A stretch of DNA of 12,745 nt, from the NCBI GenBank assembly GCA_016206745.1, contig JACQQW010000230.1, forward strand, positions 1-12,745, given 5' to 3'. Source of the stretch: Candidatus Omnitrophota bacterium (GTDB lineage: Bacteria; Omnitrophota; Gorgyraeia; Zapsychrales; Fredricksoniimonadaceae). Within the stretch, counting starts at the first letter, position 1, and the number at the start of each line of letters is the position of its first letter. A program made the position numbers and the translations under genes. The notes beneath the pieces are model-generated. The model ran no database searches. It was not told the DNA's origin and saw only the letters and a list, made by a program, of their open reading frames with translations. Below, piece by piece: positions 2 to 12,745 of this stretch.

Positions 2-451
2 ATTTTAGCCGCCAATAATATCAACCGTTCTTTGGAAGAGCTGTCGGTTTTGACTGTTGCGGTGGACTTGATCAGTGACATTATTAAAGTGGGCGAGCCG
101 AAATTAAAGACCACCTTGTTTGCCATGCATAAAGTAGGGGACGCTTTAGGGCTTAAATATTTCAGCGTCAAAGTTGCGCCCAGGGATGTCTTGAAACTCA
201 AGACCCCGTTTATTGCCCACCTTAAAGGCGAGCACTTTGTCACGGTCAAAAAAGTCACCACATCCAAAGTCTATGTTTTGGACCTGGGCCGTCCGGAGAT
301 TTTAAACCGGGTGGATTTAGAAAAGCAAGTGGACGGTTTCGCCTACGTGGCCACCGGTTCCCTGCCCGCGCCGGAAATGGTCAGGGGCGGGAGATACCAG
401 TACGTTCCTGAAACCCTGGAAGCCTTTGTCTGGGGCGACAAATGGCGCGAC
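2..451 (+). other. Peptidase C39-like domain, C-terminal part (protein domain)
   Basis: Residues 1-150 resemble the second half of the C39 papain-like fold, the double-glycine peptidase family best known from bacteriocin ABC exporters. The sequence runs from a helix into A-L-G-L-K-Y, then a P-F-I-A-H-L strand, then G-E-H-F-V-T-V with the candidate catalytic histidine H78. V-Y-V-L-D-L-G follows, with the candidate aspartate D94, and then a closing F-V-W-G-D stretch like the W-x-G end of the family. The expected Q and nucleophilic Cys would lie upstream of the window, so activity cannot be judged. No ABC transporter membrane or ATPase domain follows, so this would be a stand-alone C39 module inside a giant protein. 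Such modules could process the protein itself or cut targets. The family call rests on order, spacing and motif, without a database search. Confidence 0.72.
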
Positions 452-3400
452 CAAAGCAAGAATTTGCCCGGGTTGTTCAACGGCACGCGATTGGCCGTTA
501 ATATCGGCATTCAAGTGGCTGTGGCCGCGGCGAGCTTTGGGCTTGGGGCCTCCGGCGTTCCCGGCTTCAGCAATACCATCGGCGGTGTTCCAGTCAACAT
601 AGGACAATTTGTGGCGTTTGGCATGGCCGTGTCCCAGTTTACTTCCACCATCGCCACCATTTGCGTGCAGGAAGGGGCCTGCGACGCGCACACAGGATTT
701 TTATTAAGCACGGCATTGGCTTTCGGCATCACCGTGGGGGTTGGCATGGCCGGATCTATAAGTAATGCGGGGACTGGGGCGGCAGGAAGTTTTAGTGTCG
801 GCAAGCTTGCCGAAGACCTTGCCATCAGTTTATTTAGAGCTGAAGCGCAGTACCAGGTCCTGCAGCAGGTGGAAAAACTCTGCAAGGAAGGGGACTGCAG
901 TGAAACTATGCAGATCGTTAAAGATATGGTGAGCGCGATTGCCATGGCGGTGGTGGGATACGCGGCCACAGTTGCGGGAGTAAAGATTATAAGCACATTT
1001 GACTCTAGCGTCACTCAAAGATACGGATTTGGCAAAACCAAAGAAGGCCCGGATGCCGTTACTGACTTAGCGGACGAGAAGGCAACCGTGCGGGGCATGG
1101 ATAAAGTCAAGGATGCCCTGATCAAAAACCCTAATTTGCCCCATGAACAGCAGCAGGAGATTTTCTGGCAGGAATACATGATCGCCATGAAAGAAATGGG
1201 TTTGGGCGATCTGGCGCAAAAGGCATTTGATCATCAAGGAGACAAGGGCTACCCGACAGCTTTTCGGGATTTGGTCAGGGACAGGTTCGCCGGCAGTCCC
1301 GACGGGCTTCGCGATCAGGACTTAGTCAATGCCTGGAAGGATGGATCGTCCAAAGATTGGAAACCATTTGACATGGGCGAGACCGCTAAAAGTTTTAAAA
1401 GCCAGCTTCCTCTGGCTGTCGGTGAAATTTCCGCCATGCTGGTGCGCCTGGCGGCATTGAAAATTGCCGGGGCCAAGGCGGACAATGTGTACGCCAGGGC
1501 CATCTCGCAATTCTTTAATTCCGGCACTGCCCGCATGGGGGAAAGCTGGGCGGGCGGAAACGGCTTCACCGGAAAAGACGCGGATGGCAAACAGATTTCA
1601 TTAGGCGACATGATTTTGAAAGCGGCCAAGGATGGCGCTGTGCGCGGGATTATGCAATTTGGCTTTTCCGCTTTGGAACAATCCATCATCGGCAAAGCGC
1701 CTGGGAAATCGGATCCCGCGAAAATGCCCCGTAGCATCGACGACACCCATGTGGACGGCACGTCCGATGAAGTCCTGCAATACGAATACCGCCTCAAGCA
1801 GGCCCAATTCCGTACACTGGTGTTTTTGGGAACTGCGGTTGCCGGTGCTGCAAGGGAACTGTTTTGGGAACCGGAAGCCACCAGCCAGAATCCACGGACA
1901 TGGGGAACATTCTTAAATCTGATCGGAGGGAATGAGCAAAAGGAGATGTCCGGGTATTTGACCCCCGGTCTGGGAAAATTATTTGGAACACCCTATTTGA
2001 GCACTTTTGTTCGCACAGGGAGTTGGGGATCAATCAATAATGCCATTGCTTACAGCGATACGCTGGGTGCTTTAAGCGGATGGACGGCCCAAGGCGCGGT
2101 GCAGTCCACCAACATTTATAATAACCTGAAGGCCGCGCATGAGGCCGCGAAGAATGGCCCCATTGGCCTGACCCGCGGCCCCGGCGGTTTGCTCGCGCCC
2201 GATTATCTGGGCGCGTATATCGCCTCCCACGGGCCTTCGGTGCAGGACCAATACATTTTGGCCCTGTGGCAGCAGCATTTGATCGGCGCTCCCGGCATCA
2301 GCCCGGACCACATTAACACAACATTTCAGAATGCCGTTATAGATAATTTTGAGTCCATAGGCCGGCCGATTGTGGTGCCGTTGGTGAATATGATTGTACG
2401 TCCCAAAGAGAATGCTTTGTGGGCCAAGGACAGAGTGGAGAATTTGAAACCCAGTGAGGCCGGCTTTACGTTTACCAATACCGTTGCGGGCAGAAAGGAA
2501 ATTATTGAATTCGACCGACAAACCGGTAAAGCTTACAAAATGGATAGTGATGAGCAAGGTAATCTGCAGCGTACAGAAACAGAAGTGGATCTCCAAAAGA
2601 GGGAAATCAAAGTCACCAAAAAAGGAAACGAGTTCAATATTATATCGCCCAGCGGTTATGGTACGCTCAAGGAGCAGACACTTAATACCGAAAACGGACA
2701 GATTGAAGGACGGACGGTGTACATCCGGCGCGGCGGTTTGCGCAATTTCGGCGATATAATTATGACCATGTTTGTCGGCCGCATGAACGGAATGTATTCG
2801 GCAAAACCAGGCTTATTCAGCACCGGAGATAAATATTTCAGTGAGCCGGAACAGAAAGAGATTGAAGACTTTTATGGTTTAAAGGCAAACAAATATGATA
2901 TTTCCTGGGGCCTGGGCGCTACGCCAGGGAAGGCAGGGCAGGTGTTTGACAGCAAAGGTTATTATTCCTTTGCTGGGGCGGCGCAGCAGAACTTTTTCTT
3001 GACCTTTCCTTTAAGGGATAAAGACGGCAAGGCTGTTTATCCCGTCCAGGTGGCGCCCTCGGAAGGCATTAAGATTTTTACTGGCGCAGACAATGACCGG
3101 GCTCAATTATTTGGTGTCATTGGCGGACCATTAAAGAATGAACTGGTCCTGCCGGGCGGATGGTATTACGGGACCCCTGTGGCAGGCGCGTCGGCAGCGA
3201 TGGCCTCCGTGACGCCCACAGCTTCGTTTTCATTGGCACAGGGCTTTGCCAAGGGGGCCCAAGCGTTCTTAAACAACAAAGAGGGCACCGATCCCGTTAC
3301 TCTTGCCACCATTCCTATCCCCAGCCACGAGTTTACCCGCAACATTCGTTTTACCGAGGACTCTAAACCAGGTGAGGCTTCCAAGAAATCCAGGGCCGCT

Positions 3401-6400
3401 TTAGTTGACAAGGACGGCAGGGTTTTTGTTACCGGTGAGGGAATGCCCGGCGCTACAGTCGGCATTGAAGGTTTTTCTGTAGTTGCGCGCCCCGGTGATG
3501 AATTTGTTTTGCGCGGCAAAATTAAGAATTTAGACAATCGTTTCTTTGACTTGGAAACAACGGCACCATCTCGTTTGGAATACAACATTGTCTTTAACAC
3601 CCAGGGCATCATGCCTGTTCTTGGCACCCAATTGCGCCAGGGGCTTAAATTTATTGTGGGGCAAAATCAGGAAGGTAAAAATCTCATAGTCGGTGTTGAG
3701 GGGCTTTATGTCGGCGCCAGCGACGACGAGCACCGCAGGACATTTACTGTCAGGGATTATTCCTTCGATGGGACCAACAAAGAAGCCGAGGCCGCTTTTG
3801 GGAAAAATATTTGGCTGGAGACCAAGCGGATTGGCGAAAAACAAGACGGGGACGAGACAACGGTTCTACAATGGAAAGGGGACTTCATTCAAACTAACGT
3901 TCCTCTGTTGCATGGCTGGACCAAAGCGGGAGAGAGTACTCCTTTGGTCACACGTACGAAGCTGTATTTATCTGATACGAAAGACCCAAGCAAAAGTCTT
4001 TATTCCACCCGAGAAGACGGCCTTGCAGAAGCGGATTTGACCGGCGGGGAACCGCAGGCCAGATTTATGGCGGACAATACCGGGGCGCAATTGTTTTCTT
4101 CCGGTGATGGCCATGTCCGTTTTTCGAGGTATTTGCTGCAGGGAGGCATTGAGAGAGTAGCCAACGGGGATGTTAAAGGGGCTTTGGACAATACCAGCCT
4201 TAAAGAGGTGAAGTACAATTTTGGCGATCAAATCGATTACGGCAATAAAATGACCAGGATCGGCGAGGTGAAGGATGCCACCATTGAATATATATGGCAA
4301 AAGGATGGAAAATGGAAACCAACCGAAGAAAGTCTAAGCAAACTTCATGATGTGGACATGACTTTAACCTATCAAGATGGATCCCATCTAACACTGCCTC
4401 TTAAATTCAATCTCAAGGAACATAAGCTTTATGCCAAAGCATATGACTACAATTCCATGCTTAGGCCCATTCCCAAATTTGATGACAACAAACAACCCAA
4501 CGCCTCTGAGAAGGAAAATACTCAAGATCCAGCCAATGCTTCAAAATTACCGGACAGGGCTTTCTTTACGTCTCAAAATTTACCACTCAACTATCAATCG
4601 ATTGCTCCTCGCGGAGTGGATTCTCTTTATGTGGCCAATCTTAATCACACCGGCTATCTTATTCCTTCTTTGGACAATTCGCCCATGTTTCAGGATGTGA
4701 TGCATATTGTCGATAAAGAAGGGATGAAAGAATTTGTTTCCATGGTGCAGACGGCGGAAAAGGATGGACAAAGAACCGCTAAATTTATTGCCGCTGAACA
4801 CCGGGACGGCACAAATTTTAAACCAGAGGATGTTTTCATATTGAATAAACAGGGCCAGCTCGCTGCTATTAATACGGGCGGTAAAAACGATGCGGGACAA
4901 TACAAGTATCAGCAGACTTATGAGGGGCTTGATGGGCATAAGGCGGTCATTAAGCTGACTGAGTCCCTTGTTAGAGAAGGTGACAAGCCCAGGGAAGCGC
5001 TTGTCGGAATTGATAGAATTTCCATGGGGCCCGGCGGCAGGGCGATTACGGGTTCATTGCGAGGTTTTGACCGCAAGGTTGAATTCGGCCAGGACGGCAA
5101 AGTTACCCGCACCATCAATGATGCCCTGGCCCGCATCGATCCCACCGGAACCAGCAAAGATATCGACACAGGCACATTGATCTTTTGGAGTGAGTTGAGC
5201 AAAATCATGCCGGCATTTAATGTGTTCATCCGGCAAGGCCCCCTGTCCGCAGTGGCGTCGCAGGCCGAGTCCAATAAGAATCCGAATAAAGATGAGCAAA
5301 ATCCGGATTCCCAAAAGTCCATTGCCGCTACCCGGGCGCATAATTATGTGGTTTCCCGCACCAAGGATAAGGAAGCTCAGGGGCAGCGTATCGACGTTTC
5401 TTTGGGGGCGAACTTTACTGGCGGAATGTCGCTGGATCAGCGCCACATGATTTATGAAAACCGGACCGGAAAACCCTTGAGCGATTTTGCTGTGGTGGTA
5501 GATGAGAAACATGAGATCACCGGCGAGTTGGCCATGCGCGGTGGCAATGGCCAGAGGGCCTATTTCAATGACAAAGGCGATATGTTTTACGGTACGGGGA
5601 TCTTCGGCATCCGCAGTAATAAGGATTACGAGTATTACGTTAACCATGTCTACAACAGCATCGCCGGCGCGAAAGTCCACGGCGGGTATACGTACCGCAG
5701 CATGGAATACGGGTATAGGACTGACGGATCATTGGATGTCAAAAGCATTGCCACGGGCGATCCGCATTTTGAATGGGCCAGCGGCAGGAGCCAGGGCAGG
5801 TCGTCGGTCGGAGGGCTGACGGCCAGCGGGGGGAAAGTGTATTTGTCGGGAGTGGGCAATGCGCCCATGGTGCCGGTGTTTTTGAGCGGCTCAGGTTTGA
5901 AGGAAACGGATAAAGATTCCAAAGATAAAATGAAATCCTGGGAAAAAGAACAGCCGTGGGGCAAGGGGCAGGGGGACAGGCCCCCCGAAGCGGACGTTGT
6001 GAGCTTGTTCAAGCAGCACCAGAAAAAAGAACTCATGGCCAATGATAAATCCATTAACGGCCAGCTCGCGAATAAGTATTTTAACCAACAGGGCCACGAT
6101 GCCAAGACTTTGGAGGAGTTTCATGCTTGGCTGGCGTCCCCGGATGGAAAGGCCGCGATCAGGGCCAACTTAGGCGGCTATTACCATGAGACCACGCTCA
6201 CCGGCGGCGGCATGGCTTCCGGTCAGAATTTGATTTCCACTTTGCACAGTCCCTTCAGCGGTTCTTTGCAGCAGGACCAGCGCGGGATGGTCATTATTAA
6301 TGAAGGCGGGCAGGGGGCGGCCTTTGCCAAGGTGGCTGGACACGGGTCGGGAACAGCGTATGCGGACAACCATGCGCTTATTTATTTTGATAAAGAAGGG

Positions 6401-9400
6401 CGGATGGATTATTTTACCGGACAATTAACGATGAAAGGCAAGATTCCTTTTGTGGCCAATGCCCGCAAGGAAGACGGCTCCAACGCATACAGCGAATTTT
6501 TATTCAAAGTCATCATTTTTGGCCACAGCCTGGTCAGCGATCCGGACGACAATAGCCGGCGCATCCAGCTGGATTTTGTGCAGGGCACGCTGCCTTATAT
6601 GGTCAAGGGCAGGGGGGTCGGGAGTGAGCTCAGGAATGAAGGCGGCAAAGACCGAATCGTGCCGATCACCTTCAGCGGCATTGAAATCATCAACCGCATC
6701 GACAGTACTGGCACGGAATTGCAGGGCCAGGGCGATTTGAAAGTCCTGGACGTGCAGAAGGCTTCTTGGGTGGGGACTAAAAACTCTGGAGGGGGCACGT
6801 CCGCCCCAGGGCGGGCCGATAGGTCGGATCTGGAAAAAACAACCACCAAAATGAACAGAGACGAGCAGAAAAAACGGCAAGAATTTGATGACGCCCATAA
6901 AACCGATATAGGGTATACGAATATGTCGGCCTCTCAAAAAGATGCCTTTTATTTGGCGGAAAAAGCCAAGACCGACACCTCCCTGGCCGGGCAGGTGGCC
7001 AAAGATCTGTTAAGTCAAAGCCTTCCCAGCGGCACGGACCTGAAGGCAAAATTCAATGAGATGTACGCAGCCAAGCTGAAAGAACAGTATGACCAGGGAA
7101 ATCTGCCCAATGCGCATACATCTACCTTGTCCAGGAACAAGTATGGCACAGTGATGGCTGACACTCAGCAATTGATTTTATCCGCCAACACGCCTTTCAG
7201 CGGTTCCATGCGGCAAGACCAAAAGAACTTGCACGTTGTGATCACGGGGGACAATGTTTATTATGGCCATGCCGTGGACAGCCACGACAACCACGCCTCC
7301 AAATTCGAGGCCAGCAACGGGTCCGACCTCTATTATAACAAAGACGGTCAGTTAGAATATTTCAGCGGCAATGTGTACCTTAAGAATATCGATGGCAAAC
7401 AGCAGGTGCAGATATATTCCGGCAAGGATTATGACGGCAAAATATGGACGCTGGCCTATTTGGTCAAAAGCATGGGCATGACTTATAGCTTTGACCGCCA
7501 GGGGCTGCATTTGGACATATTAGAACAAGGGCTTGATATCAACAGCAAGGGCGGTTTGCTTACGAATGGCACCACTACAAAAGAAGTTGCCTTTAAGGAA
7601 TTGCCGGTTCTTGTGTCCCGCAGTGAGGCTTTAAAAGGGCAGGGAGATTTAAGGTTTAAGATCGATGGGGACATGGTTTATATACCGGCGTTTTTGAGGC
7701 AGCCGACCACTGTGGATTCGCAAGAAAGCCTTGAAAAAGCCCTGAAACAAAGCTCAGAAAATTACCGACGGGACTGGGAAGAGCAGTGGAAAAAGAGGAA
7801 TCCCACGCGGGACATGAAAGAAAAGGAAAACCAGGACGCCATGAACCAGTCCTATGGCGAACATTTGAGGGACGAGCACAATCTTTCCTTCGCGGGTTTG
7901 ATAGCCAAATACGCTCAAGAACACCGGCGTGTGACCGTTGAGGGACTGGACTTGTTTCTGAAAGAAAAAGGGGCAGGGTCGATCAAGAATTTCCATGAAA
8001 TTGTGCTGCACGATAACGGCACGGCCAAAGATCAATGGCTGATCGGCAGCTTGCAAAACCCCTTGACCGGGTCTTTGTCCCAGGACCAAGCCGGGCTGAT
8101 GATCCAGATGGACAATAATTACAACACCGGCGGAGGCATGCTTTACGCCAAAATATTGGACGCGGCAGGCAACCATGTCGCCAACATGGCCGCTCCGGAC
8201 CAGGGCCGGGTGTATTTTGACCAAAACGGCCAGTTGGGCTTTTTCACCGGTACCAATTATAGGCTGCGCGTCAGCGATTTGGACGCCATGGTTTATACCG
8301 CGGACAAGAAGGGGGACAATCCGGGGGTGGAGAAAATAGAACATTTGCGTTTATTCCCCATGATTTTAGCCATGCGCTATAGCTTTGGGGAAAGAGACCT
8401 GGAAGATCATAAAGGCAAGGAAAAGGTCTTGAAGCTGGACATTGTTAAAAATGAAACCAGCTTTGTCCGCAATGCCCAGGGCACATATGATTTTGAGGAA
8501 CATGCCACTGTCGATGGAAAACCAAAAATGGTGAAGGGCACCTTCAATGATTTTGTCCAGGTGGCGCGCAAAGGGATCGGCGGTAAAGAAATTGAGGGCC
8601 AGGGTGATTTAGATTTGATCGGCATTAAGACCGAAGGCGGCCAAAAGCTTTTCCCGATCGAGGATATTTCCCGCCTGCGCATTATGCAAACCACGCCGCT
8701 GGTGGGGAGTTTCCAAGTCCGCCAGGGCCAGATCATCGATGAGAATGGGGCGAGGTTTCAATACGCTAATGCCGGGGGAGGCAAACGGGAAGTCCTGGTG
8801 TCCAATCACCGTGATCCCAAAGAAGCCGGGCTTAAATTCGAGGAAAATGATGACGGCCAGTTGGAGTTGAGGTACATCACGAAGGTGAAGTCCATTTTGG
8901 GGTTGAGCAGCTACACCAGCAATACCAAAGTAGAATCCAAGGCGGTCCCCGGCGGATGGATGGCGTGGATACCAGGCGATACCAGCAGCGACAGGACCGT
9001 TTATTTCATCGGGTCGGATTTCAAAGTGGCCGCCATCAAAGGGGAATTTTTCCTTGATTCCGCTAAATTGTTCGACCGCATCAAAGACCTCGACGGGAGG
9101 AAGATGCTGAAAGGGGACTCTAAAAAAGCCGATTACGATAAGATCAATAAAGCTTTAAAGGACCATACGTCGTTAGAGGACCTGGCCCTTGCGATTAATG
9201 ACCAGGAGCTTTTTGGCAAGTGGATCGTGGATACATTAAAGGACAAGGCGATCATCAATTTAAGCCAGGTCAACAGCACGGGCGCTTGCGTTGCTATTCA
9301 TTATATGGCTTCCGATATATTCCAACAGACGGGTTTGGGTGCATTGAAAATGGTTTATATTGAAGGCCTGAAAGAGCCGCACGTGGCTTTGGTTGACGTG

Positions 9401-12400
9401 ACGACCAGAAAGCTCATTGATTTGACCTATCAGGCAGATTACCCAGATACGGCCAAAATTGTTTTGGCCAACGGCAAAGAAATAAAGAACATAAAACACG
9501 GTGCTGAACTGCCCCAAGAAGTTATAGACCAGGCTGTCATTCCAAAGGGAGTGATTGAACAGCAAATGGCCTTAATCAACTTGAAAATGGGGCGTTTTGA
9601 GGAAGCGGCCAAGCACGCGGACAAAGCCAAAGAGGCCGGAGGGGACAAGGCCCACAATATCAAAGAGCTGGCTGATATTTATATTGCCCTGGGCAATAAT
9701 GCCCGCAATAACCGCGATAGGACCCAGGCCGTGCAGTTTTATGAGAAAGCCAAGGCTTTGGACGAGGGTGCTGGAAGAACTGACCGGATGGATGACTTGG
9801 ATGTTGCCATAAGCGCCATGGGCGGCGGCGGCCGTGCGGCCGCGGTTAAAGAGCCCAGAACATCATTTTTCTTCGATCAAACCGGAATGGGCAAAGGCCC
9901 CATGCTCGCGGTGCTTTCCAGTATGCCCAGCGGGTTTTATTTAGGAAGAAATGGCAAGGCGTCCATACGCACCATCGATGGGGAATTCAGCTATGAATCA
10001 GCGGTGTCCGCGGCAAGTAATAGCCGGACCATATATATTGTCAGCGACAAGTCCGGCGAGAAATTTGTCTATGATCCGCTCACCGGCACGACTTTGAGTA
10101 AAAAAGCAGGCGGCATCATCCCCTTGACTTCTTCACAAGGACTGCCGTTATACTTGGATTTGGGCGACGGACAATTAAGGACTTTTATTTATAATGAAGC
10201 AGCTTTCGGTAAAAGCGAAAACGAAGCGCGGAATTATTTTAGAGGCAGGGTCAATGGCCATGACATTTTTGCTCCGGATACTGTCACTCAAGCGGGGAAT
10301 ACCTATAACGCGCTTATATTCACGACCAAGGGAGAACCGGTAGACCTGGGGCATTTCTTGGCGAGCCAATATCAAATCCAAGCCCAGCCTGCGGTGAACG
10401 AGGACGTGCAGCAGCGGGGAGAACTGTGGGTGCAGAATGAAAAAGGGCCAGGCCGGCCGCGCAAAGAACTATTGGCGCATGAAAATGTCTTCGGGCCTAT
10501 GGAGGACAAAGGCGTTTCTTTTGGTCAGATGGCGAAAGATTTATTATCAGGCATGAACGACTACCGCGATGCGGAGGGATATTTTACTGTTCCTTTACTA
10601 ATTACAAATGTAAGAATAAAACGGCCTCAATTCCTTGGTGGTCATGGTGAGGATGAGCGGCTTTTTAGCGTCGTAACTGGGAACGGAACGGAAGGAAGAA
10701 TGGATCCCGAAGCTTTGGGCCTGAGCCAGGATACGATAATGGGTATCAGAAAGATTATTTTAGATGCACATAATATTCAGAAACGGGCGTTGGAAAGTTT
10801 GTGGGCAGGTAAACCGGCAGACCAGGCAGACATAGACGCAGATATGAACGCATATGAAAATTCCAGGAACAGGATCATGGAGCTTATATGGAAGGATGCA
10901 GGCATTAACGCGGTGCTGGCGAATCCAACCACGGTTAAAGATTATGCGTGGACTTCTGACCATTCAGGGGAACGTAACGCTAAAATTTTAGGTACTGCTG
11001 CTACTGCGTGTGCAATAGGGTGTTGGAATTTGGGCTTCGGAGCGGCCCTTGCCATTGGCGCAGCGGGAGGAGGTTATTTATTGCTGGGCAGGAACATTGA
11101 AAATAACCGGGTGAATTTTGAGAATATTTCTGGTGGGGAAGTGGCAATGACGATGGGGATGGCCTTATTGCCGGTGGCAGGAAAGGTAATGGCTTTGACC
11201 AAGGTAGGTACGGCCGTTGATTCTTGGATGGCCGGCATTGGAAAAGATGTTGCCCTGCGCTGGGGGGCGGAAATATCCAATCCTGTGGTCCAGCGCCTGG
11301 TGGGAGTGGGGGTAATTTCTGGCCGTACAGGGACGGCGGCTGCGATTGGCGCGGCTGGTTATGATTTTTTGACGGGCCATGATTACAGTAATGTGGGGAA
11401 AGTCGCGAGTATTGGCGCGGCCCTGCCGGCACTGGTTTTACCTGCGGCATCTCTTTTTAAAAGCAGCTATGGATTGAGCTTTAAACTGGCGGCCACCACC
11501 GTTTACGCACCCAATGCCGTTTCCCTGGTGGCGCGAGGGAAAATATTAGATGGTGACACCAATGCCGCATTATTTACGCTTGCTTTGGCATTTCCGGTAA
11601 GCAGGGTATTCGCAGGTTCGACGGCGGGGAGTTTAGTTGAAAAAGCAACACAATCGTTGATAGGACGCGCAGCCTTGAATGTAGCCAGAACCTCCGTTTT
11701 CTCTGCCCTTGATTACGCGGCCTGGTACGGCATGACTGATGCGGCGGAAGCCGCCCGTCAGGGCCAGAATTTAGGATATGACGGGGTGATGAGCAGTGCC
11801 GGGAAGGGAGCGATTTTTGGTTTGATCGTAGGCGGTGGTTTTGGCGTGCTGGGCCAGGCGCGGCTTTTAAACGCAGCCAGACTGGCAAAAAAGACCGAAG
11901 CGGCGGCTAACGCTGCTGCGGAAGGAACAGTTAACGCCGCAAGGGCCGCTGATGCAGGTATCGTTGAAGCGGTATCCAGACCTACCCGTTTTTATAATTG
12001 GCTTGGCTCAAAAACAGACAAGACCATCACCTGGCTTGGCACAACCACAGGCAGGACAATCGGCGGGGCGGCTGCCGGAGCCGCGCTGAATGTGGGATAT
12101 GAATTTGTTCCTTTGTGGGTAAGTAGAGGTTGGACCAGGGCTGCGCAGGAATACGGTGGCGAAAGGCTTCTTCTTAACGCAGCCACCGGTATCATTTCCG
12201 GGGCGGTCATCGGGCGTTTGAGCAATAAACTTTTCCCCAAGGCGGAAGTGTTGGAACATAACCATTGGAGAGGGGCCGGCTGGCGTTTGGGGGTGGGCAG
12301 CGCCACCGGAGCTTTGCTTTTTACCGGGCATGATTTCGGTACCGCCATCGCCGAAAACGGTACGTGGCAGAGGGCCTGGGAAAATTACGGAGGCACGCAA

Positions 12401-12745
12401 GGCGCCCGCTTTGGCCGGCTGGCGGCGCGGGGTTTGGGCGGGGCTTTGCTGGGCTGGTCTATTATGTCGGGAGTGGGCGCTATGAACCGGATGGGCTGGA
12501 GCGAAGGGTTTAAATTCGGCGAAAGCCCGCTGGAATTATGGAACACGTCCAACCGCAGTGCCATGCGCTGGCCCATTGTCTCCGCCAACTTTACCATAGG
12601 AGAAGCATTTTGGACAGGTCTGGTCAGTAATATTGAAAAAGGAATTGGAGACAGGCTCGGCGTTCAAACCCGGTATACCGACGTACATATTCCTGCCTTT
12701 GCCATGAAAGAAGGAAGATACTTTATTGATTTATTTGGAGAAAAA
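2..12745 (+). CDS. Giant multidomain surface/secreted protein, internal fragment (both ends missing)
   Basis: The frame starting at base 2 is open for 4,248 consecutive codons to the end of the window, so this fragment alone is roughly 450-470 kDa. No start codon, signal peptide or stop is in view. In order it holds a partial C39 peptidase-like domain, a hydrophobic block with paired cysteines, a helical region, a long beta-rich region, five diverged repeats, a transglutaminase-like Cys-His-Asp domain, two TPR-like repeats, another beta-rich domain and a hydrophobic Gly/Ala-rich repeat region. Only seven cysteines occur in the whole fragment, which fits a protein working outside the cytoplasm. 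The domain mixture and size recall the giant genes of Omnitrophota. A role in cell-surface interaction or predation is inferred from that comparison. The continuous frame is certain; the function is not. Fusion of several genes by sequencing error is unlikely, because no gap, ribosome binding site or break in coding character is seen. Confidence 0.97.
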   Translation, partial: MLAANNINRSLEELSVLTVAVDLISDIIKVGEPKLKTTLFAMHKVGDALGLKYFSVKVAPRDVLKLKTPFIAHLKGEHFVTVKKVTTSKVYVLDLGRPEILNRVDLEKQVDGFAYVATGSLPAPEMVRGGRYQYVPETLEAFVWGDKWRDQSKNLPGLFNGTRLAVNIGIQVAVAAASFGLGASGVPGFSNTIGGVPVNIGQFVAFGMAVSQFTSTIATICVQEGACDAHTGFLLSTALAFGITVGVGMAGSISNAGTGAAGSFSVGKLAEDLAISLFRAEAQYQVLQQVEKLCKEGDCSETMQIVKDMVSAIAMAVVGYAATVAGVKIISTFDSSVTQRYGFGKTKEGPDAVTDLADEKATVRGMDKVKDALIKNPNLPHEQQQEIFWQEYMIAMKEMGLGDLAQKAFDHQGDKGYPTAFRDLVRDRFAGSPDGLRDQDLVNAWKDGSSKDWKPFDMGETAKSFKSQLPLAVGEISAMLVRLAALKIAGAKADNVYARAISQFFNSGTARMGESWAGGNGFTGKDADGKQISLGDMILKAAKDGAVRGIMQFGFSALEQSIIGKAPGKSDPAKMPRSIDDTHVDGTSDEVLQYEYRLKQAQFRTLVFLGTAVAGAARELFWEPEATSQNPRTWGTFLNLIGGNEQKEMSGYLTPGLGKLFGTPYLSTFVRTGSWGSINNAIAYSDTLGALSGWTAQGAVQSTNIYNNLKAAHEAAKNGPIGLTRGPGGLLAPDYLGAYIASHGPSVQDQYILALWQQHLIGAPGISPDHINTTFQNAVIDNFESIGRPIVVPLVNMIVRPKENALWAKDRVENLKPSEAGFTFTNTVAGRKEIIEFDRQTGKAYKMDSDEQGNLQRTETEVDLQKREIKVTKKGNEFNIISPSGYGTLKEQTLNTENGQIEGRTVYIRRGGLRNFGDIIMTMFVGRMNGMYSAKPGLFSTGDKYFSEPEQKEIEDFYGLKANKYDISWGLGATPGKAGQVFDSKGYYSFAGAAQQNFFLTFPLRDKDGKAVYPVQVAPSEGIKIFTGADNDRAQLFGVIGGPLKNELVLPGGWYYGTPVAGASAAMASVTPTASFSLAQGFAKGAQAFLNNKEGTDPVTLATIPIPSHEFTRNIRFTEDSKPGEASKKSRAALVDKDGRVFVTGEGMPGATVGIEGFSVVARPGDEFVLRGKIKNLDNRFFDLETTAPSRLEYNIVFNTQGIMPVLGTQLRQGLKFIVGQNQEGKNLIVGVEGLYVGASDDEHRRTFTVRDYSFDGTNKEAEAAFGKNIWLETKRIGEKQDGDETTVLQWKGDFIQTNVPLLHGWTKAGESTPLVTRTKLYLSDTKDPSKSLYSTREDGLAEADLTGGEPQARFMADNTGAQLFSSGDGHVRFSRYLLQGGIERVANGDVKGALDNTSLKEVKYNFGDQIDYGNKMTRIGEVKDATIEYIWQKDGKWKPTEESLSKLHDVDMTLTYQDGSHLTLPLKFNLKEHKLYAKAYDYNSMLRPIPKFDDNKQPNASEKENTQDPANASKLPDRAFFTSQNLPLNYQSIAPRGVDSLYVANLNHTGYLIPSLDNSPMFQDVMHIVDKEGMKEFVSMVQTAEKDGQRTAKFIAAEHRDGTNFKPEDVFILNKQGQLAAINTGGKNDAGQYKYQQTYEGLDGHKAVIKLTESLVREGDKPREALVGIDRISMGPGGRAITGSLRGFDRKVEFGQDGKVTRTINDALARIDPTGTSKDIDTGTLIFWSELSKIMPAFNVFIRQGPLSAVASQAESNKNPNKDEQNPDSQKSIAATRAHNYVVSRTKDKEAQGQRIDVSLGANFTGGMSLDQRHMIYENRTGKPLSDFAVVVDEKHEITGELAMRGGNGQRAYFNDKGDMFYGTGIFGIRSNKDYEYYVNHVYNSIAGAKVHGGYTYRSMEYGYRTDGSLDVKSIATGDPHFEWASGRSQGRSSVGGLTASGGKVYLSGVGNAPMVPVFLSGSGLKETDKDSKDKMKSWEKEQPWGKGQGDRPPEADVVSLFKQHQKKELMANDKSINGQLANKYFNQQGHDAKTLEEFHAWLASPDGKAAIRANLGGYYHETTLTGGGMASGQNLISTLHSPFSGSLQQDQRGMVIINEGGQGAAFAKVAGHGSGTAYADNHALIYFDKEGRMDYFTGQLTMKGKIPFVANARKEDGSNAYSEFLFKVIIFGHSLVSDPDDNSRRIQLDFVQGTLPYMVKGRGVGSELRNEGGKDRIVPITFSGIEIINRIDSTGTELQGQGDLKVLDVQKASWVGTKNSGGGTSAPGRADRSDLEKTTTKMNRDEQKKRQEFDDAHKTDIGYTNMSASQKDAFYLAEKAKTDTSLAGQVAKDLLSQSLPSGTDLKAKFNEMYAAKLKEQYDQGNLPNAHTSTLSRNKYGTVMADTQQLILSANTPFSGSMRQDQKNLHVVITGDNVYYGHAVDSHDNHASKFEASNGSDLYYNKDGQLEYFSGNVYLKNIDGKQQVQIYSGKDYDGKIWTLAYLVKSMGMTYSFDRQGLHLDILEQGLDINSKGGLLTNGTTTKEVAFKELPVLVSRSEALKGQGDLRFKIDGDMVYIPAFLRQPTTVDSQESLEKALKQSSENYRRDWEEQWKKRNPTRDMKEKENQDAMNQSYGEHLRDEHNLSFAGLIAKYAQEHRRVTVEGLDLFLKEKGAGSIKNFHEIVLHDNGTAKDQWLIGSLQNPLTGSLSQDQAGLMIQMDNNYNTGGGMLYAKILDAAGNHVANMAAPDQGRVYFDQNGQLGFFTGTNYRLRVSDLDAMVYTADKKGDNPGVEKIEHLRLFPMILAMRYSFGERDLEDHKGKEKVLKLDIVKNETSFVRNAQGTYDFEEHATVDGKPKMVKGTFNDFVQVARKGIGGKEIEGQGDLDLIGIKTEGGQKLFPIEDISRLRIMQTTPLVGSFQVRQGQIIDENGARFQYANAGGGKREVLVSNHRDPKEAGLKFEENDDGQLELRYITKVKSILGLSSYTSNTKVESKAVPGGWMAWIPGDTSSDRTVYFIGSDFKVAAIKGEFFLDSAKLFDRIKDLDGRKMLKGDSKKADYDKINKALKDHTSLEDLALAINDQELFGKWIVDTLKDKAIINLSQVNSTGACVAIHYMASDIFQQTGLGALKMVYIEGLKEPHVALVDVTTRKLIDLTYQADYPDTAKIVLANGKEIKNIKHGAELPQEVIDQAVIPKGVIEQQMALINLKMGRFEEAAKHADKAKEAGGDKAHNIKELADIYIALGNNARNNRDRTQAVQFYEKAKALDEGAGRTDRMDDLDVAISAMGGGGRAAAVKEPRTSFFFDQTGMGKGPMLAVLSSMPSGFYLGRNGKASIRTIDGEFSYESAVSAASNSRTIYIVSDKSGEKFVYDPLTGTTLSKKAGGIIPLTSSQGLPLYLDLGDGQLRTFIYNEAAFGKSENEARNYFRGRVNGHDIFAPDTVTQAGNTYNALIFTTKGEPVDLGHFLASQYQIQAQPAVNEDVQQRGELWVQNEKGPGRPRKELLAHENVFGPMEDKGVSFGQMAKDLLSGMNDYRDAEGYFTVPLLITNVRIKRPQFLGGHGEDERLFSVVTGNGTEGRMDPEALGLSQDTIMGIRKIILDAHNIQKRALESLWAGKPADQADIDADMNAYENSRNRIMELIWKDAGINAVLANPTTVKDYAWTSDHSGERNAKILGTAATACAIGCWNLGFGAALAIGAAGGGYLLLGRNIENNRVNFENISGGEVAMTMGMALLPVAGKVMALTKVGTAVDSWMAGIGKDVALRWGAEISNPVVQRLVGVGVISGRTGTAAAIGAAGYDFLTGHDYSNVGKVASIGAALPALVLPAASLFKSSYGLSFKLAATTVYAPNAVSLVARGKILDGDTNAALFTLALAFPVSRVFAGSTAGSLVEKATQSLIGRAALNVARTSVFSALDYAAWYGMTDAAEAARQGQNLGYDGVMSSAGKGAIFGLIVGGGFGVLGQARLLNAARLAKKTEAAANAAAEGTVNAARAADAGIVEAVSRPTRFYNWLGSKTDKTITWLGTTTGRTIGGAAAGAALNVGYEFVPLWVSRGWTRAAQEYGGERLLLNAATGIISGAVIGRLSNKLFPKAEVLEHNHWRGAGWRLGVGSATGALLFTGHDFGTAIAENGTWQRAWENYGGTQGARFGRLAARGLGGALLGWSIMSGVGAMNRMGWSEGFKFGESPLELWNTSNRSAMRWPIVSANFTIGEAFWTGLVSNIEKGIGDRLGVQTRYTDVHIPAFAMKEGRYFIDLFGEK
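479..1021 (+). other. Hydrophobic Gly/Ala-rich region with about four membrane-like helices
   Basis: Residues 160-340 contain hydrophobic runs at about 163-185, 200-222, 234-253 and 309-330, rich in Gly, Ala, Val and Ile and with few charges. Each is long enough to cross a bilayer. Between them sit two cysteine pairs: C221/C227 in C-V-Q-E-G-A-C and C294/C299 in C-K-E-G-D-C. The pairs look like small disulfide loops on the same side of a membrane. A polar helix (about 270-308) separates the third and fourth runs. The region could anchor the protein, insert into a target membrane as in pore-forming toxins, or be a buried Gly-rich helical bundle. No family is recognised. Confidence 0.6.
1022..2461 (+). 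other. Mostly helical region, unrecognised
   Basis: Residues 341-820 read as amphipathic helices with loops. The start is charged, with a stretch rich in Glu, Gln and Lys near 381-400. A moderately hydrophobic helix follows near 430-450 and a stronger one near 603-622, the latter starting F-R-T-L-V-F-L-G. The second half (630-820) is rich in Gly, Asn, Trp and Tyr with many short helices, including T-P-Y-L-S-T-F and L-G-A-L-S-G-W, and ends in a charged hinge near 801-820. No catalytic motif or known family is visible. It links the membrane-like block to the beta-rich region. One or two of its helices may be membrane-associated, but most of the stretch looks soluble. Confidence 0.5.
2462..5377 (+). 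other. Long beta-rich polar region, unrecognised (possible diverged repeats)
   Basis: Residues 821-1792 alternate polar and hydrophobic residues in short strands joined by turns such as D-K-D-G, D-S-K-G and T-G-E-G, as in adhesin-like or beta-sandwich and beta-solenoid proteins. Recurrent hairpin forms include a V-D-K-D-G-R-V-F-V-T-G-E-G stretch at about 1135-1147, G-D-G-H-V-R-F-S near 1368-1375, and L-N-K-Q-G-Q-L-A near 1614-1621. The G-S-L-R-G-F-D segment near 1684-1690 recalls the signature of the later repeats. These may be more diverged copies of the A-E repeat, but the similarity is too weak to draw boundaries. The region ends in a linker rich in Asn, Lys, Asp and Gln near 1755-1775. 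No cysteine and no enzyme motif are present. A structural or binding role is inferred. Confidence 0.5.
5378..5896 (+). repeat. Protein repeat unit A (beta-rich, most diverged of the clear units)
   Basis: Residues 1793-1965. The signature is N-F-T-G-G-M-S-L-D-Q-R (D1812), followed about 40 residues later by A-Y-F-N-D-K-G-D-M-F-Y-G-T-G, matching the hairpin of later units. The unit is rich in Tyr (Y-E-Y-Y, G-Y-T-Y, Y-G-Y) and closes with S-G-G-K-V-Y-L near 1942-1948, in place of the G-Q-G-D-L strand of units B-D. It lacks the well-formed helical arm that precedes B and D. The signature aspartate lies 280 residues before that of unit B. Confidence 0.6.
5996..6775 (+). repeat. Protein repeat unit B with helical arm
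   Basis: Residues 1999-2258. A charged helical arm (1999-2060) contains L-A-N-K-Y-F and T-L-E-E-F-H-A-W-L. The beta core follows, with signature P-F-S-G-S-L-Q-Q-D-Q-R-G (D2092), the hairpin I-Y-F-D-K-E-G-R-M-D-Y-F-T-G near 2127-2140 and the closing strand Q-G-Q-G-D-L (D2245). A Ser/Gly/Pro linker follows at about 2261-2270. The core has no cysteine and no obvious catalytic site, so a binding or scaffold role is likely. The DNA is only partly similar to the other units, indicating old duplication. Confidence 0.75.
6824..7702 (+). repeat. Protein repeat unit C with helical arm
   Basis: Residues 2275-2567. The arm (2275-2370) is the longest and most charged, starting N-R-D-E-Q-K-K-R-Q-E-F and including A-A-K-L-K-E-Q-Y. 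The core carries P-F-S-G-S-M-R-Q-D-Q-K-N (D2406), the hairpin L-Y-Y-N-K-D-G-Q-L-E-Y-F-S-G near 2443-2456, a strand pair around Y-S-F-D-R-Q-G-L-H-L-D-I-L, and the closing K-G-Q-G-D-L-R-F (D2549). The spacing of its signature to unit B is 314 residues, longer than the others because of the arm. Its match to B is the clearest pairwise similarity in the array. Confidence 0.77.
7712..8677 (+). repeat. Protein repeat unit D with helical arm
   Basis: Residues 2571-2892. The arm (2571-2665) is very charged at first, with W-E-E-Q-W-K-K-R, then contains L-I-A-K-Y-A and V-E-G-L-D-L-F-L, which align with L-A-N-K-Y-F and T-L-E-E-F-H-A-W-L in unit B. The core has P-L-T-G-S-L-S-Q-D-Q-A-G (D2695), the hairpin V-Y-F-D-Q-N-G-Q-L-G-F-F-T-G near 2737-2750 and the closing E-G-Q-G-D-L-D-L (D2869). 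An insertion rich in Asp, Glu and Lys near 2805-2860 makes the core longer than in B or C. Confidence 0.75.
8678..9037 (+). repeat. Protein repeat unit E (short, diverged, no arm)
   Basis: Residues 2893-3012. It begins directly after unit D without a helical arm. P-L-V-G-S-F-Q-V-R-Q (2899-2908) aligns with the P-x-x-G-S-x-x-Q-D-Q signature, except that Arg replaces the Asp. F-E-E-N-D-D-G-Q-L-E-L-R-Y aligns with the hairpin of unit C. The closing G-Q-G-D-L strand is missing; G-G-W-M-A-W-I-P-G-D occupies that position. It is probably a degenerate or capping copy. Confidence 0.5.
9038..9550 (+). other. Transglutaminase-like (papain-fold) Cys-His-Asp domain
   Basis: Residues 3013-3183. A helical lead-in (3015-3085) reaches N-L-S-Q-V-N-S-T-G-A-C with C3096 at the start of a helix (C-V-A-I-H-Y-M-A). 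Thirty-one residues later comes P-H-V-A-L-V-D with H3127, then K-L-I-D-L-T-Y with D3140. This order and the short Cys-His distance fit the core of transglutaminase-like proteins. There the Cys caps a helix and His and Asp sit on following strands. Q3089 is placed where a papain-fold oxyanion glutamine could be. The TPR repeats just after it recall SirB1-type proteins, which pair the two. C3096 is the only cysteine of the fragment not in a close pair. It could be an active peptidase or crosslinking enzyme, or a degenerate fold. The call rests on motif order only. Confidence 0.5.
9557..9766 (+). other. Two TPR-like repeats
   Basis: Residues 3186-3255. The first repeat (about 3186-3219) reads A-L-I-N-L-K-M-G-R-F-E-E-A-A-K-H-A with a following A-K-E-A. 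This is the classic A/L-x-x-x-x-G-x-x-x-x-A pattern of tetratricopeptide repeats. The second (about 3220-3255) has L-A-D-I-Y-I-A-L-G, a short loop insertion (N-N-A-R-N-N-R-D-R), then Q-A-V-Q-F-Y-E-K-A-K-A-L. TPRs are helical hairpins that bind peptides or other proteins. Directly following the Cys-His-Asp domain, they may present its substrate or pack against it. Confidence 0.75.
9815..10621 (+). other. Beta-rich domain after a tetraglycine hinge, unrecognised
   Basis: Residues 3272-3540. It starts after M-G-G-G-G-R, a flexible hinge next to the TPRs. Short strands and turns follow: F-Y-L-G-R-N-G-K-A-S-I near 3307-3317, R-T-I-Y-I-V-S-D near 3342-3349, and L-Y-L-D-L-G-D-G-Q-L near 3384-3393. 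A Pro/Arg/Lys-rich connector near 3481-3490 leads into an amphipathic helix near 3507-3522 and further strands. No enzyme signature or cysteine is present. The style resembles the beta-rich regions earlier in the protein, without a clear copy of the A-E signature. Confidence 0.45.
10622..10981 (+). other. Helical connector before the C-side hydrophobic region
   Basis: Residues 3541-3660. After a short strand and loop (3541-3570), the sequence forms long amphipathic helices: I-M-G-I-R-K-I-I-L-D-A-H near 3579-3590, then A-L-E-S-L-W-A-G, an Asp-rich turn, and R-I-M-E-L-I-W-K-D-A near 3624-3633. It ends in a polar stretch (D-H-S-G-E-R-N) just before the first hydrophobic helix. No family is recognised. 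It may be a spacer or a docking helix pair. Confidence 0.45.
11300..11461 (+). repeat. Hydrophobic hairpin repeat i
   Basis: Residues 3767-3820. A Gly/Ala helix ending in A-A-G-Y-D-F-L-T-G-H-D-Y is followed by a loop and a second helix V-A-S-I-G-A-A-L-P-A-L. The T-G-H-D loop is shared with repeat iv. A poorer copy may follow at residues 3824-3875, with an A-R-G-K-I-L-D-G-D-T loop. Confidence 0.5.
11663..11860 (+). repeat. Hydrophobic hairpin repeat ii
   Basis: Residues 3888-3953. The first helix runs through F-S-A-L-D-Y-A-A-W-Y-G, a polar loop follows (A-R-Q-G-Q-N-L-G-Y-D-G), then a second helix A-G-K-G-A-I-F-G-L-I-V-G-G-G. The plan of Gly/Ala helix, aromatic/acidic turn, polar loop, Gly-rich helix is the same as in repeats iii and iv. 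An Ala-rich, charged helix (3956-3985) separates it from repeat iii. Confidence 0.45.
12047..12226 (+). repeat. Hydrophobic hairpin repeat iii
   Basis: Residues 4016-4075. Helix G-G-A-A-A-G-A-A-L-N-V-G-Y-E-F, then W-T-R-A-A-Q-E-Y-G-G in the loop, then helix A-T-G-I-I-S-G-A-V-I-G. The W-x-R-A-x-x-x-Y-G-G loop recurs in repeat iv about 80 residues later. Confidence 0.6.
12284..12481 (+). repeat. Hydrophobic hairpin repeat iv
   Basis: Residues 4095-4160. Helix L-G-V-G-S-A-T-G-A-L-L-F, turn T-G-H-D-F-G, loop W-Q-R-A-W-E-N-Y-G-G, then helix A-R-G-L-G-G-A-L-L-G-W. It joins the T-G-H-D turn of repeat i to the W-x-R-A-x-x-x-Y-G-G loop of repeat iii, which supports a common repeat origin. A fifth, cut-off copy may begin at about residue 4187. 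Confidence 0.6.

Follow-up and report, generated by a model that had tools for sequence, protein, structure and literature searches.

With moderate confidence, we read the gene that fills the analysed DNA (the window, i.e. the whole stretch of 12,745 nucleotides) as coding for an exported, membrane-anchored giant protein, which belongs to a family of Omnitrophota giants recognised by their common N-terminal header and is used together with a Tad pilus in cell contact. The window is occupied by one open frame whose first residues align with this header, and in most relatives with enough upstream sequence the header lies behind tadB and tadC. Giant open reading frames in Omnitrophota have already been published, and the gene in the window is a further case of them.

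One open frame across the window

Frame +2 of the forward strand (bases 2-12745) comprises 4,248 codons with no stop, as an earlier note on this DNA had described it, and the five remaining frames hold 80 to 251 stops each. In 200 first-order Markov sequences simulated with the dinucleotide make-up of the window, the longest open frame had a mean of 206 and a maximum of 335 codons, and the chance of zero stops across 4,248 codons was roughly estimated at log10 = -63. A frame this far beyond chance bears out the assignment to a giant gene that had been made from the letters. The window constitutes the entire contig C190 of its source MAG (genome G000; 1.36 Mb, 299 contigs, 69% completeness), and therefore both ends of the gene lie off the contig. 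Its length (12.7 kb, open at both ends) is to be read against a threshold of 20 kb for giants (PMC10066038) and against the frames of its relatives, which reach 173 kb (some header frames being short). The earlier placement in Omnitrophota also stands, as the genome shares its family with those of three giant-bearing relatives (G021, G010 and G031).

When the frame was divided into blocks of 300 codons, GC was lowest at codon position 2 in all blocks as far as residue 3600; in the next two blocks, which form the Ala/Gly-rich end, this position had a GC of 0.51 and 0.57. Stop-free protein matches in relatives span window residues 1-380, 447-805, 1454-2288 and 2368-2553, and matches to the repeats of the window extend to about residue 2919. 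Past about residue 2920 the coding reading is carried by the open frame and its composition only; two outside matches in this part (E 3.0e-4 and 4.7e-4) are weak and not convincing. Tandem Repeats Finder reported no tandem repeats in the window, and a search with the whole translation against 5.8 billion sequences (candidates of 0.55-1.75 times the query length) recovered only the translation itself.

One Pfam family exceeded its cut-off in the window (Peptidase_C39, residues 33-108, 32.9 bits vs a cut-off of 22), and five families were registered at E <= 1. The KS, A, C and carrier domains are absent among these five, and RHS or toxin domains among the Pfam and NCBIfam matches at E <= 1, which agrees with the earlier statement that the gene is neither a polyketide or peptide synthetase nor a carrier of RHS repeats. 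NCBIfam gave one weak match to the translation, far below cut-off, and a sequence search of the PDB gave none at E <= 1. Membrane-like segments were indicated by hydropathy at residues ~164-333, at 471 and at 3667-3956 (Table 1).

Table 1. Features located in the window (nucleotide positions; residues are those of the translated frame).
Feature	Position	Strand	Basis or remark
Single open frame	2..12745	+	4,248 codons; reaches both contig ends without a stop; part of giant gene
C39-type cysteine peptidase domain, front part missing	2..361	+	Pfam PF03412 and alignment with relatives
Aligned catalytic His	233-235	+	Residue 78; alignment with relatives
Aligned catalytic Asp	281-283	+	Residue 94; alignment with relatives
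Catalytic Cys position (expected)	about 24 nt off contig	+	Alignment with relatives
AFVWGDKWRD motif, after the C39 domain	422..451	+	First W and G in 29/29 rows
Ala/Gly-rich hydrophobic region, membrane-helix-like segments	479..1021	+	Hydropathy, alignment
Conserved Cys pair inside the Ala/Gly-rich region	659-682	+	Close pair in 28/29 rows
Second block common to some relatives	1340..2416	+	Matches G004, G021, G031, G018, G036; within residues 447-805
Block common with G005:C24	4343..7657	+	Residues 1448-2552, about 32-34% identity
Four diverged ~300-residue repeats	5219..8803	+	Residues about 1740-2934
Weak TPR-like stretch	9563..9766	+	Residues about 3188-3255, below Pfam cut-offs
Ala/Gly-rich hydrophobic region near the right end	10979..12691	+	No convincing relative

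A shared header in front of variable bodies

The relatives have in common a header of ~290-400 residues at the N-terminus of their frames, in which a signal-like segment is followed by a C39 domain (with conserved C/H/D), the WGDKWRD motif and an Ala/Gly-rich region. Four motifs typify it: SRFxxWIRxVAxxVxxxFxPxQxSWAFNYNP (the signal-like segment), NCGVYAL, PFIAxxxxEHFVTV with a D thereafter, and VWGxKWxDxSxxLPGL, which precedes the Ala/Gly-rich hydrophobic region with its close Cys pair. In the header alignment A2 (29 rows: 28 named loci and the window), the catalytic residues are kept throughout (Cys 28/28, His 29/29, Asp 29/29), and a possible signal-peptidase site carries Ala at -1 in all 28 rows that have letters there and S (26 rows), G (1) or C (1) at -3. 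Window residues 1-155 match positions 139-288 of the header profile A1 (E 7.7e-58), the first of them lying 8 residues past the aligned catalytic Cys and about 200 residues into the relatives. The distance from the upstream stop to where the match begins (window residue 1-7) is 175-255 codons in 15 of 18 locus rows (two others leave the 5' end of the locus after 105 and 207 codons, and one has 323), and therefore the window begins about 0.6 kb inside the gene. The earlier description of an internal piece thus holds insofar as both ends are open, but the piece is not a random one, its left end being placed shortly past the gene start and within the C39 domain.

Peptidase_C39 exceeds the Pfam cut-off in two relatives as well, and in the PDB the A2 profile retrieves C39 proteases (LahT and PCAT-type ones) with modest E-values of 0.0015-0.027. 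The AlphaFold model of the G021 header reached a pLDDT of 86-98 in all ten-residue blocks of positions 101-260 (mean of 76 overall). C39 proteases usually carry a Gln six residues before the catalytic Cys; this Gln was encountered in 1 of the 28 rows of relatives, and the window lacks that position. The kept C, H and D speak for peptidase activity, but with the Gln absent from most rows this should be taken with caution. Since the signal segment precedes it, the C39 domain would act outside the cytoplasm (in the periplasm or at the cell surface), as far as the putative signal can be trusted. Transporter C39 domains work at the cytoplasmic side, unlike a domain placed by export. Although the C39 domains of bacteriocin ABC transporters (PCAT1, LahT) resemble the one described here by family (PF03412) and by the aligned His and Asp (and Cys in the relatives), they differ from it in that Pfam found no ABC transporter family in the window, the domain is predicted to lie outside the cytoplasm behind a signal segment, and the relatives mostly lack the Gln.

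By scanning 84,980 species genomes with a pattern derived from the header alignment, we recovered 38 relatives among 51 candidate stretches (an earlier genome scan, with a single protein as query, found none). The labels of 36 of these header loci read Omnitrophota/Omnitrophica, Omnitrophus, Zapsychrus or Aceula (the last two belonging to Omnitrophota), and the other two are labelled Elusimicrobia and 'bacterium'. The header profile, at E <= 0.001, matched 188 of 384 genomes drawn from the phylum (145 of the 248 good ones), many of them over the C39 part only, and left 196 (103 good ones) unmatched. Near-full-length headers (query start <= 12, end >= 250) were counted by hand in at least 78 genomes among the matches listed, of which 33 belong to the window's family or order and 45 to other orders of its class. 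Considering that no near-full-length header from another class occurs among the matches listed, we delimit the family to the class and do not regard it as phylum-wide. A protein search with the header yielded 46 proteins, all short (the search restricts candidate length); one of the few that carry an organism name is labelled Ignavibacteriae, and the others are Omnitrophota.

Within the 55 genomes of the window's family and order (its own included), 34 (again with its own) hold a match to window residues 1-2999, as do 23 of the 28 good ones; most of these matches fall at residues 1-~260, inside long frames. In 36 of the 38 loci the header frame extends as far as the locus does, the two that stop earlier having 2,265 codons (L093, directly followed by a frame of 1,452 codons) and 772 codons (L112). 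Stop-bounded header frames measure 35,884 (G010), 19,506 (G021, with 38 X), 9,214 (G031), 7,967 (G011) and 7,274 codons (G007), those running off their contigs (G004, G034, G006, G019, G036) 17,411 to 25,804, and the longest among the matches listed attains 57,756 codons (G274:C2, header at 22867-23622). Eight short-framed header copies were checked (seven from six further genomes and the second copy of G281): six run off the contig and two are closed, at 409 (G219:C15) and 1,704 codons (G281:C37), in genomes that both hold another header copy. Two near-full-length headers per genome were noted for G281 (C37), G219 (C15, C17) and G329 (C24, C28). In G047 (C7:31200-79999), three long frames overlap one another and have unknown bases where they meet; they are perhaps one giant interrupted by assembly gaps.

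The bodies behind the header are mostly long and hypervariable among relatives. Units related to the ~300-residue repeats of the window were found in G005, in G025 and in a 42,913-codon frame of G130 (a genome outside the window's order), the repeat-bearing contig of G005 (C24; 33,245 bases) being itself open throughout. Residues 2501-4248 were matched in only 5 of the 55 genomes at E <= 0.001, namely in the window's own, in G005 and G025 (through the repeats), and marginally in G031 and G045. An AlphaFold model of the repeat unit, built from four sequences, was uninformative (mean pLDDT 35).

Three candidate assignments for the body were abandoned. A transglutaminase-like domain, suspected by eye near residue 3092, was dropped; the profile of a region that four giants share (G004, G006, G010, G021) proved hydrophobic and did not match the window. 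Homology of the right-end hydrophobic region to other giants was dropped as well (hhalign probability 0.6%). Glucan synthesis was rejected as a general function, PF02364 being present in only 10 of the 55 genomes and absent from G000. Where it does occur, this eukaryotic-type 1,3-beta-glucan synthase domain can lie inside giants, as in the 17,411-codon header frame of G004:C15 (L032:11741-13204, minus strand; matched by yeast FKS1 at E 3e-20) and in a 17,674-codon frame of G034 (C3:364507-365862); other frames bearing it among the ten genomes have, e.g., 21,496 and 10,599 codons. The tails of three giants (G006:C79, G004:C15, G019:C8) resemble, by eye, cytoplasmic enzymes (LOG-like, nucleotidyltransferase-like, radical-SAM-like), and in that of G004 no Pfam family was found at E <= 0.01. 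The last part of the G010 frame also differs by eye from the rest and may not be a natural protein.

Tad genes upstream of the giants

The tadB and tadC genes, the only pair scored for synteny, are situated upstream of the header and on the same strand in 23 of the 26 header loci whose upstream sequence is at least 4.5 kb long (the misses being L089, L092 and L101) and in 26 of all 38. The TadB and TadC profiles were built from six contigs (G010, G021, G031, G004, G036, G034), and four of the scored loci (L085, L086, L095, L107) also contributed to them. Outside the window's order and inside its class, the pair was found on the same strand within 12 kb upstream in 16 of 19 header loci; the misses were G148, G219 and G342, the last with a piece of tadC at the contig edge. 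This sample consisted of 20 headers taken in E-value order, 19 of which have at least 4.5 kb upstream (G097 has 713 bases); G222 (short upstream) and second copies were skipped, and G274, scored apart, carries tadB and tadC about 8-10 kb before its header.

Seven contigs were inspected by eye. The six from which the profiles were built show, upstream of the giant, a pair of proteins (about 285 and 300 residues long), a large TadG-like protein and mostly small pilin-like proteins (no Pfam family was found in the latter when scanned), and the seventh (G006) has pseudopilin-like genes instead. T2SSF exceeded its cut-off in four of the ~285/300-residue proteins and in a 285-residue TadB-like protein of the window's own genome. 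The gene for this last protein ends 21 nt before the end of contig C173 (3,461 bases) and lies on a different contig from the giant. C173 is compatible with the gene order of the relatives if tadC and the beginning of the giant were lost in a gap between the two contigs, which would then presumably join. The missing start of the header was also sought in G000, with no positive control, and was not found. Before the TadB-like gene (L123:2-1252 on the same contig), Cys-rich repeats resemble thrombospondin type 1 (E 8.6e-4, below cut-off).

MutL/MutS-like genes were recognized by eye downstream of the giants in G021 and G031, both of one genus. Secreted-looking proteins, with an LPxPG-like stretch after a signal-like segment (by eye), adjoin the giants of G007 (C40:71625-73871), G021 and G010 (downstream in the last two). 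We did not find the shared header and tadB-tadC synteny of Omnitrophota giants in the literature searched.

The same arrangement was encountered in a single-contig genome from outside the window's order (G127; 1,974,201 bases), where a frame matching TadC (E 7.8e-82) is closely followed by a header frame of 39,687 codons (29823 to 148884); the search yielded no separate tadB there. For Ca. Velamenicoccus archaeovorus, a giant of 39,678 aa with 42 predicted membrane helices and a Tad locus at 12382-29832 have been reported (PMC10066038). Because the start of the header frame agrees with the Tad coordinates, and the codon count with the protein length, G127 is probably this organism. Peptides of the V. 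archaeovorus giant were 3-fold higher in attached cells, and its Tad complex was expressed in co-culture with Methanosaeta; the excerpted text handles giants and Tad as separate traits (PMC10066038). A public proteome of V. archaeovorus is deposited as PRIDE PXD025008 (PMC12583861). The published giant thus has phylum, class and a giant frame in common with the window, and the V. archaeovorus-like giant of G127 has the N-terminal header with its C39 domain and the adjoining Tad genes in common with the header family. It differs from the window by order and, by single-sequence search, has no match to window residues 1-2999, therefore the bodies differ.

Proposed function and its alternatives

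We reason that the window represents the front part of a giant gene, minus its first ~200 residues. A Sec-type signal segment would export the giant, signal peptidase probably cutting after a small-W-A site, and the C39-type domain would thereby face the periplasm or the cell surface. The Ala/Gly-rich membrane segments may anchor the giant, and the long, variable body, which in the window includes four repeats of ~300 residues, may make contact with other cells. Most likely the giant would work alongside the Tad pilus when the bacterium attaches to other cells or preys on them, and the most likely substrate of the C39 domain would be the giant itself or a Tad partner. A conserved header in front of a hypervariable body is what would be expected if the tasks common to all members (export, anchoring and processing) fell to the header and lineage-specific targets to the body. 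Taken with the killing of prey by the Tad pilus of Myxococcus (PMC12075869), the Tad linkage makes a role in contact or predation our best guess. More tentatively, and with well under even confidence, the header giants of the class may all be one orthologous component of a Tad contact machine, in which the header exports the giant and bears a surface protease for processing it or the pilus tip, and the hypervariable body supplies lineage-specific adhesive and effector modules directed at the partner or prey of the respective lineage.

The Kil system of Myxococcus offers a likeness in that the giants occupy a tadB-tadC neighbourhood with Flp-like and TadG-like genes (by eye), and a difference in that its tips are minor pilin complexes and the available part of its description mentions no giant C39 protein (PMC12075869). 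Gigantic Omnitrophota proteins have been described as carrying lipocone, papain-like peptidase and polysaccharide-synthesis domains (PMC12419801); they resemble the present family by mixing a papain-like peptidase, polysaccharide enzymes and membrane segments, but an N-terminal header, the C39 family and a Tad linkage go unmentioned in the excerpted text.

That the N-terminal part of the aligned relatives holds a peptidase-like domain in which C/H/D are retained would also suit a self-processing polyprotein, cut by its C39 domain into many mature proteins so that the giant itself does not persist; bodies that combine unrelated modules (with a glucan-synthase domain in two cases) point the same way. 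We consider this unlikely, given that most relatives lack the Gln usual before the Cys, and that some modules of the body look cytoplasmic by eye although the C39 domain is predicted to lie outside. The scarcity of that Gln (1/28 rows) would instead favour a non-catalytic C39 domain, which merely docks and positions an export or pilus partner. The C39-like domains of RTX-type transporters have such a docking role, but docking versions lose the Cys, and its retention in 28/28 rows, together with His and Asp in 29/29, renders this reading distinctly improbable.

The giant could also be a structural, extracellular coat with no special link to Tad, the synteny reflecting old gene order only. A coat function has been proposed for the V. 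archaeovorus giant (PMC10066038), many membrane-like segments appear in a simple hydropathy scan, and the MutL/MutS-like neighbours are likewise kept in two relatives; yet tadB-tadC, the one gene pair scored, holds its place in other orders of the class too, and we regard a coat of this kind as quite improbable. An assembly artefact (a chance or mis-joined open frame) might be suspected from a MAG contig with both ends open and from the absence of relatives past about residue 2920. It is very improbable indeed, as there are zero stops across 4,248 codons, long frames of relatives from independent assemblies match several blocks within residues 1-2919, and the single-contig genome G127 has the same header on its 39,687-codon frame.

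Our preferred reading, an exported giant used with the Tad pilus in cell contact, bears on proteins that have been called poorly conserved and hard to assess (PMC10066038). The earlier note had held the functions of such giants to be largely unknown; that giants exist in Omnitrophota is indeed published, but the statement can now be sharpened by the class-wide header, the C39 domain, the Tad neighbourhood of the relatives and the V. archaeovorus-like giant. The giant Omnitrophota proteins rank among the longest predicted proteins, and the header, its peptidase domain and the Tad neighbourhood provide a handle by which the start of the gene is recognisable even in broken MAGs. With such a handle, members of the family can be enumerated and put into alignments, and the V. 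archaeovorus enrichment, for which proteome data are available, is one place where involvement in contact or predation could be tested.
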